Source: Kordia periserrulae (GTDB taxonomy: Bacteria; Bacteroidota; Bacteroidia; Flavobacteriales; Flavobacteriaceae). Taken from it: DNA of 64,000 bases. The stretch covers positions 558,001 through 622,000 of the forward strand of contig NZ_QBKT01000001.1 of NCBI RefSeq assembly GCF_003054265.1, in the 5' to 3' direction. Within the stretch, counting starts at the first letter, position 1; the number at the start of each line of letters is the position of its first letter. A program made the translations under genes and the position numbers. The notes below the pieces were generated by a model. The model had not been told where the DNA came from and did no database searches. It was given only the letters and a program-made list of their open reading frames with translations. Positions 15,953 through 16,230 of the stretch are shown one piece after another.

Positions 15953-15984
15953 AAAAAGGATTGTCACTATTGACAATCCTTTTT
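15953..15984. terminator. Bidirectional terminator between tsf and the peptide gene
   Basis: AAAAAGGATTGTCA (15953-15966), loop CTAT, TGACAATCCTTTTT (15971-15984), with T runs on both strands. It ends the tsf transcript on the plus strand and the Cys-rich peptide transcript on the minus strand. Confidence 0.85.
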
Positions 15985-15993
15985 TTTATTTTT

Positions 15994-16230
15994 CTAGTAA
16001 CAACCACAGCTTTCAGCTTCATAAGTTCGAAAGCCACAAAATGCACCAATGGTTTCACCGCAAGCATAACCACCTTGAGTTTCACAATTCATAGTATCTT
16101 CGCAATCACCAAGTTCAGTGTCTTGGTTACACATAGCTATAAAAGTTTCTTCATATCCGCCTTTAAGACTTTTAAAATTAGAAATTGCTATCTTATTAAG
16201 TTGTAATGTTGTAAGATTCTTTTTTTTCAT
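15994..16230 (-). CDS. Cys-rich RiPP precursor, class I lanthipeptide-like leader
   Basis: A 78-residue peptide with a leader and a core. The leader MKKKNLTTLQLNKIAISNF resembles the LNKxxIS-type leaders of Bacteroidota class I lanthipeptide precursors and ends in LKGG (24-25), a double-Gly cleavage site. The core (26-78) has seven Cys (34, 43, 49, 57, 65, 75, 77) and seven Ser/Thr (T29, T38, T46, T51, T60, T69, S74) that nearly alternate, as expected for lanthionine rings closed from Thr/Ser to a downstream Cys. It ends G-C-Y. No dehydratase, cyclase or transporter is in this window, so the maturation genes would be elsewhere. Disulfides or other thioethers are alternatives. The gene shares the terminator with tsf. 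Confidence 0.7.
   Translation of the reverse strand: MKKKNLTTLQLNKIAISNFKSLKGGYEETFIAMCNQDTELGDCEDTMNCETQGGYACGETIGAFCGFRTYEAESCGCY

Follow-up and report, generated by a model that had tools for sequence, protein, structure and literature searches.

We analysed a stretch of 64,000 nucleotides from Kordia periserrulae (C1:558001-622000 in a 4.73-Mb genome; hereafter the window), focusing on a small open reading frame (ORF) that probably encodes the precursor of a lanthipeptide-type product. The gene occupies 15994..16230 on the minus strand. Translation, the DNA itself and the match to the gene in its own genome agreed on a product of 78 amino acids with an ATG start and a TAG stop, which reads MKKKNLTTLQLNKIAISNFKSLKGG followed by YEETFIAMCNQDTELGDCEDTMNCETQGGYACGETIGAFCGFRTYEAESCGCY; the plus-strand reading of the same interval is interrupted by a stop. 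This confirmed the frame reported in the first-pass annotation, which had left the strand unstated, as well as the LNKIAIS motif, the double Gly at positions 24-25 and every position listed there for the seven Ser/Thr and the seven Cys. The gene sits between two genes that we take, from their protein sequences, to be tsf and pyrH, and its orientation is opposite to both. A leader-model search of the window yielded this precursor alone of its kind, and a Pfam search with the peptide gave nothing at E <= 10. Between tsf and the precursor gene, a terminator-like stem-loop at 15953..15984 was listed on the plus strand only; because A- and T-runs flank it, it could serve both genes. Two terminator-like sites were found in the region against 0.4 expected; sigma-70-type sites were at chance level (five found, 4.3 expected), in a scan that does not cover Bacteroidota promoters.

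Residues 1-25 (16156..16230, minus strand) form a leader that ends in Gly-Gly. A profile of 72 leaders from the same genome matched it at G000:C1:574156-574230 with E 1.7e-9, the peptide's own leader being among the 72 rows. Within this leader, LQLNKIAISNF (residues 9-19; 16174..16206, minus strand) is an LxLxKx5L-type motif in which Phe replaces the last Leu, and we propose from its sequence that it is the recognition site to which LanB would bind. Similarly, Gly24-Gly25 (16156..16161, minus strand) is a proposed C39 cleavage site, as suggested by the sequence and by the leaders of paralogues, and cleavage would occur directly after it. The sole NCBIfam model matched by the peptide was NF038153 (lant_leader_L1a), a class I leader model, and neither the Pfam nor the NCBIfam search gave a Nif11-type leader. 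The same model was matched by 68 of the 72 leaders at E <= 1, and one relative passed its cut-off at 23.8 bits.

The core, residues 26-78 (15997..16155, minus strand), contains seven Ser/Thr and seven Cys, which could form up to seven thioether rings. If Cys adds to a dehydrated Ser/Thr on its N-terminal side, a Ser/Thr is expected a few residues before each Cys, and not necessarily after it. In this peptide, all seven Cys have a Ser/Thr 2-7 residues N-terminal, an outcome reached by 1.8% of 2000 shuffled cores (P 0.018). The ring pattern of the single peptide is only mildly unusual.

The first-pass annotation had called the peptide an orphan, which holds for its neighbourhood only. We rejected the idea of a lone orphan: a tblastn search with the peptide returned 59 places in its own genome at E <= 10, nearly all via the leader, and genome-wide the peptide is one of 147 catalogued precursors. 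The paralogous leaders that the annotation had proposed to look for are many. The precursors are spread over 14 contigs, are 42-104 residues long and combine the same leader type with unlike, Cys-rich cores. At least two Cys were present in 142 of the 147 cores, and Cys accounted for 669 of 5656 core residues compared with 2 of 3970 leader residues. The catalogue was drawn from 84 stretches plus the window (1.09 Mb), picked around leader matches; ORFs were kept at E <= 0.2, and three without an in-frame Met-Lys were dropped, of which two look real and one spurious.

The profile of 72 leaders gave at least 144 matches in the genome at E <= 0.1; of the 274 candidates 150 were scored, so large counts here are floors. 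These 72 leaders were aligned from 92 that passed our filter among the 101 precursors then known, the 20 excluded being mostly weaker or odd. The leader model was built from 74 own-genome leaders, and each leader was ended at the first G-G/A/Q within a set range. So cut, 137 of the 147 leaders ended in GG. The LxLxKx5L motif was fitted strictly by 78 of them, by 108 when L or F was accepted and by 144 with relaxed hydrophobics. Given the origin of the model and the rule for ending leaders, leader statistics are partly circular, and core statistics much less so.

Ring statistics were calculated for 145 of the 147 cores, the two without Cys being left out. A Ser/Thr was found 2-7 residues on the N-terminal side of 634 of the 669 Cys, against 452 expected by shuffling (z 14.3), whereas on the C-terminal side the count was 454 against 452 expected. 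One-to-one matching of Ser/Thr with Cys gave 625 pairs against 405 expected (z 19.5). Fully matchable cores numbered 103, against 24 expected and a maximum of 35 in 300 shuffles. When Cys positions were fixed in the null, the N-side z was 12.8. Ten control residue groups gave N-side z values of 0.1-3.6 compared with 14.3 for Ser/Thr, and in ordinary ORFs of at least 250 amino acids (492 ORFs, 1619 Cys) the fraction of Cys accompanied by Ser/Thr was 0.531 on the N-side and 0.568 on the C-side. At the family level, the two shuffle nulls, the C-side comparison, the ten control groups and the ordinary proteins all led us to reject an alternation of Ser/Thr and Cys that arose by chance. The signature is computational evidence for directional thioether rings, stronger than one peptide could give.

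A comparable result was obtained with 51 precursors from other Kordia genomes, where an N-side Ser/Thr was present for 294 of 305 Cys (z 9.4-10.0); these had been retrieved through similarity to the window peptide or from positions next to tsf, and several are orthologues of K. periserrulae precursors, so the sample is not independent. Four rows without an in-frame Met-Lys, three of them the same K. algicida gene, had been dropped from this set. In 144 non-redundant precursors of K. periserrulae, Pro right after Cys was also strongly enriched (z 8.2).

Leaders ending in Gly-Gly and Cys-rich cores occur also in disulfide-rich and in radical S-adenosylmethionine (SAM) peptide families. The peptides might be disulfide-rich and exported, or carry radical-SAM thioethers, without lanthionine. 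TIGR04149, a model for radical-SAM-modified ribosomally synthesized and post-translationally modified peptides (RiPPs), was weakly matched by five of the 72 leaders (best E 0.034), and radical-SAM RiPP clusters have been reported for Kordia in the part of the TrRiPP study concerned with this genus (PMC11118758). However, disulfides do not account for the N-side Ser/Thr at nearly all Cys, and LanB is present in all 13 leader-positive genomes among the relatives described below. We consider this other chemistry very improbable.

We then located the enzymes. In line with the first-pass annotation, which had stated that the window contains no modifying enzyme or exporter, the genome search placed every LanB, LanC and C39 match outside it. 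In total, the genome encodes one LanB N-domain, four LanC-like domains and five C39 domains. The LanB-N match (C7:159909-161879) lies on a contig other than the window's, and a LanC match (C7:158646) adjoins it. The cluster begins with LanC (405 amino acids), LanB-N (751 amino acids) and a separate Lant_dehydr_C protein (302 amino acids). Two genes of the TPR/AraC type come next, with a weak leader-like peptide after each of them, and then a clear precursor with the same leader type (MKKQKLGVHKLALTKSRIAELNTANLKGG...); the opposite strand carries HlyD and a C39 protein of the ATP-binding cassette (ABC) type. Among solved structures, LanB-N has relatives in LanB proteins such as NisB, the 302-residue protein in the C-terminal parts of two of these LanB proteins, and the LanC in NisC among others. 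This LanC contains WCYG and CHG, which we take to be zinc-ligand motifs. Nearly all of the 147 precursors are far from LanB.

We examined co-occurrence in 80 related genomes, 11 of them Kordia, with up to 105 leader candidates scored per genome, so that large counts are again floors. LanB was present in 18 of the 80: every one of the 11 Kordia genomes has a single LanB, and 7 of the 69 others also encode LanB. Leaders were detected in all 11 Kordia genomes (94 to at least 105 per genome); among the 69 non-Kordia genomes, G028 had one and G065 had two, and the remaining 67 gave none. LanB was present in 13 of 13 leader-positive genomes, and leaders in none of the 62 LanB-negative genomes. In a class-wide sample of 395 genomes, with up to 21 candidates scored per genome, leader matches were found in four besides K. 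periserrulae itself, at most nine each among the candidates scored.

By coordinates, LanC adjoins LanB in all 11 Kordia genomes. DUF4135 was found in four of the 11 and in none of the 69 others, with a LanM-sized frame with LanC in three; the seven Kordia genomes without DUF4135 all had at least 94 leaders. Because LanB with an adjacent LanC occurs in 11 of 11 and DUF4135 in four, LanB/LanC is the only always-present pair among the lanthipeptide enzymes searched. Since LanM occurs only patchily, we rejected it as the enzyme that the library requires.

Alternatively, the dispersed precursors could be substrates of LanM or of class V-like enzymes, in the way that ProcM modifies prochlorosins, with LanB serving its neighbour precursor only. 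The genome encodes a LanM of 957 amino acids at C2, in whose 19-kb stretch no leader-bearing precursor was found, and has a second DUF4135 match at C3. At C10 (L062:8859-13386, corresponding to G000:C10:28858-33385, minus strand), there is a cluster of LanC, HopA1-domain and APH-like genes, a set that we presume to be a class V lanthipeptide cluster type. Against such an assignment, all 11 Kordia genomes have their many leaders although few have DUF4135, and the leaders match the class I leader model. Moreover, the C10-type LanC (a frame of 426-427 amino acids) occurs in 10 of the 11 Kordia genomes; the exception, G003, has the LanB-adjacent LanC only and no DUF4135, yet carries at least 104 leaders. 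Modification of the dispersed precursors by LanM or class V-like enzymes is therefore improbable. The C10 cluster also adjoins a 313-residue protein built of repeats such as GPTGTQGCTIVGPTGYQGC. Many of its Cys are preceded by a Thr at a distance of a few residues, and the protein is possibly a very long poly-thioether precursor.

A further arrangement would have several lanthipeptide enzymes share the work, LanB/LanC taking most precursors and a lone LanC, LanM or the class V-like set taking subsets. LanC matches vary from one to six per Kordia genome, and the lone LanC at C1:237722 (L021:8120-10841, or G000:C1:236119-238840), which lies apart from the genome's only LanB, has a same-leader precursor just upstream, with a transglutaminase-like gene before that precursor. 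On the other hand, G003 retains its leaders with LanB/LanC alone, and nothing links the window peptide to another enzyme. This arrangement overlaps with our favoured explanation, and we regard it as a minor but real possibility.

To follow the gene itself, we turned to the tsf locus. In the named genome collection, the sole relative of the peptide was found in Kordia algicida OT-1, at 70% identity. This counterpart keeps all seven Cys and six of the seven Ser/Thr, and is identical to the window gene product at 40 of 53 core and 12 of 25 leader residues. With dN 0.20 and dS 0.94 (NG86), the core is under constraint in this one ortholog pair. At nine of the 11 Kordia loci, the strand opposite to tsf carries leader-bearing ORFs in the 1.5 kb downstream of that gene, up to three at each and with unlike cores; pyrH is within reach in seven of the 11. 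In G003, no leader-bearing ORF was found within that distance downstream of tsf. The string CxxTxxCETxGGxxCGETxxxxC is present at the same locus in G002 and G006, and in looser form in G005. The Cys and Ser/Thr pattern, whose conservation the first-pass annotation had made decisive, is thus kept in K. algicida and recurs at the locus in two further genomes.

Taken together, these data make it likely that the product of the window gene is a precursor of the class I lanthipeptide type and belongs to a genome-wide library of substrates matured in trans by LanB/LanC. That the peptide is a class I lanthipeptide-type substrate matured in trans is very probable. The lanthipeptide-type product suggested by the first-pass annotation is favoured by the parts that can be computed, namely the enzymes elsewhere in the genome, the paralogous leaders and the retained Cys and Ser/Thr pattern. 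In the proposed pathway, the split LanB from contig C7 would bind the precursor leader, and core Thr/Ser would be glutamylated and then dehydrated. The LanB-adjacent LanC would join each Cys to a dehydro residue lying 3-6 positions N-terminal of it, so that as many as seven (methyl)lanthionine rings would form. A C39-peptidase ABC exporter would then cut after Gly-Gly and secrete the product. The same enzymes probably also serve about 150 further precursors, whose leaders are of this type and whose cores are dissimilar. The product may act in competition or in interaction with algae.

Several observations weigh against this interpretation. The peptide scored 12.3 bits (E 0.15) with NF038153, under the curated 22-bit cut-off, and for this reason is not filed under that model. 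Among the 669 Cys, 44 lack a one-to-one Ser/Thr partner, and one-sidedness is not perfect: the Cys-fixed null shows a smaller C-side excess (z 3.1 and 4.3), the C-side z lies anywhere from -3.5 to +4.3 when other offset ranges or measures are used, and Ser/Thr at +2 after Cys is enriched in the 144 non-redundant precursors (z 6.6). In addition, 42 Cys-dense segments of ordinary proteins lean to the N-side (96 versus 78 of 171 Cys). The LanM, class V-like genes and lone LanC of the genome are possible takers of some substrates. The seven non-Kordia genomes with LanB carry just 0-2 such leaders, which indicates that the expansion does not follow from having LanB and is particular to Kordia; moreover, co-occurrence within the genus is one evolutionary event, not eleven. 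At the tsf locus, G010, the closest genome by tsf, is without the gene despite flanks matching at 86% and 90%. Finally, the K. algicida frame has no in-frame ATG, and an out-of-frame ATG stands at an A-run just before the frame.

A paralogue on C10 of the K. periserrulae genome and one gene in G004 resemble the K. algicida copy in having an out-of-frame ATG. In 86 of the 147 K. periserrulae precursors, 7-8 A directly follow the ATG, and leader frames with a nearby ATG that is out of frame at the following A-run were seen at L071:4968-5189, L115:1768-2001 (minus strand) and L089:1480-1659. Such ATGs may reflect sequencing error, decay or slippage (phase variation).

Upstream of the precursors, we found a palindrome, TAYGG-N5-CCRTA, located 60-80 bases before the ATG in 33 of the 147 (for example at G000:C2:440504, C11:103458 and C1:349816). 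Sites with a score of at least 9 were present in 42 of 147 upstream regions (300 bp) versus 1.5% of 600 random segments, with a matrix trained on the same upstream regions. The palindrome is probably a regulator site. As it is absent before the window gene, and no site scoring at least 9 occurs in L055, the stretch with the LanB operon, it does not explain the window gene, and we rejected it as a shared promoter element for that gene. A further 67 sites were not upstream of catalogued precursors. Thirteen strong ones were examined, and in five of them the palindrome starts 65-78 bases before small GG peptides with a different leader (like MLKNISKVGAVLSKSEQQNISG); these lie in L102 near 1327 (plus strand) and 3773 (minus strand), L057 near 10678 (plus strand), L122 near 2465 (minus strand) and L069 near 2348 (minus strand). 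The two peptide families may therefore share a regulon. Genes of the TPR plus AraC-type helix-turn-helix kind stand beside leader-like peptides in the LanB cluster, at L055:18107-19828 and L056:317-2801. On C5 (L048:5394-8084), in the interval separating two precursors, a palindrome site is followed 60 bases later by the start of an ORF of 601 amino acids. The TPR/AraC-type genes and the C5 ORF are perhaps regulators of the library.

In its boldest form, our proposal would be that a single split LanB with LanC in each Kordia strain matures at least 150 unlike cores in trans, making these among the largest natural one-cell lanthipeptide libraries and the first of class I in the literature found, and that A-run slippage after the ATG may switch peptides so that each cell secretes its own subset. 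We put this forward tentatively, as a rather unlikely whole. The cases known to us in which one lanthipeptide enzyme serves dozens of dispersed substrates all involve a bifunctional cyanobacterial LanM. Should a tRNA-dependent LanB in two parts, together with a separate LanC, serve about 150 cores, then the way in which one enzyme produces many ring patterns could be tested in a second, unrelated enzyme class with a natural library. Such an arrangement would also suggest that mining near enzymes alone misses most lanthipeptide precursors in such bacteria, and raise the question of why the marine genus Kordia retains such a repertoire.

The individual parts are of known kinds, and what is new appears to be how large the library is and that LanB/LanC apparently act on it in trans. 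In its passages on Bacteroidetes, PMC7268733 describes class I LanA with an LxLxKx5L leader, a GG end, C39 peptidases and LanC/LanB partners; the present family shares the GG end, the peptidases and the partners, and has the leader motif in strict or relaxed form. The same passages note that precursors distant from their enzyme exceeded the distance limit of the study; here, by contrast, nearly all 147 are far from LanB, and the window peptide has Phe for the last Leu. A class I cluster in K. algicida was reported in 2010 (LanB KAOT1_15523, LanC KAOT1_15518 and LanA KAOT1_15533; PMC3091789), and we take it as the presumed counterpart of the C7 cluster. One LanA is named there, and the passages concerned do not mention dispersed precursors. 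The TrRiPP study, as far as its main text goes, counted up to 176 RiPP precursors in one Bacteroidota genome and singled out Kordia as RiPP-rich, for lanthipeptides and radical-SAM peptides; that main text, supplements aside, does not tie the precursors to one leader family or one LanB (PMC11118758). One lanthipeptide cluster type is given for K. antarctica in the relevant part of PMC7477175, and knowledge of Kordia metabolites is described as scarce in that of PMC10734526. The leader type and the RiPP richness of Kordia are thus already published; for a class I in-trans library in Bacteroidota, we found no account in titles and abstract openings, a search that left subscription journals largely outside, and supplements too.

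The closest likeness is to the prochlorosins, which, in the portions of PMC10783134 and PMC9872173 that bear on the comparison, likewise combine one enzyme set with many dispersed precursors, a conserved leader, a GG end, diverse cores and an obscure biological function. Up to 484 putative ProcA/SyncA are given there across the genomes mined (PMC10783134), and up to 79 SyncA substrates for SyncM (PMC9872173), compared with 147 precursors catalogued in one Kordia genome. The many precursors catalogued here are dispersed as well (147 on 14 contigs), and their diverse cores follow a single leader type. The presence test, in contrast, did not point to modification by a class II LanM, DUF4135 being absent from seven of the 11 Kordia genomes. 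Whereas prochlorosins pair class II LanM with Nif11-type leaders, Kordia has class I LanB/LanC and a short Lys-rich leader. By analogy, the Kordia library would work like the prochlorosins, and we do not file it as one of them.
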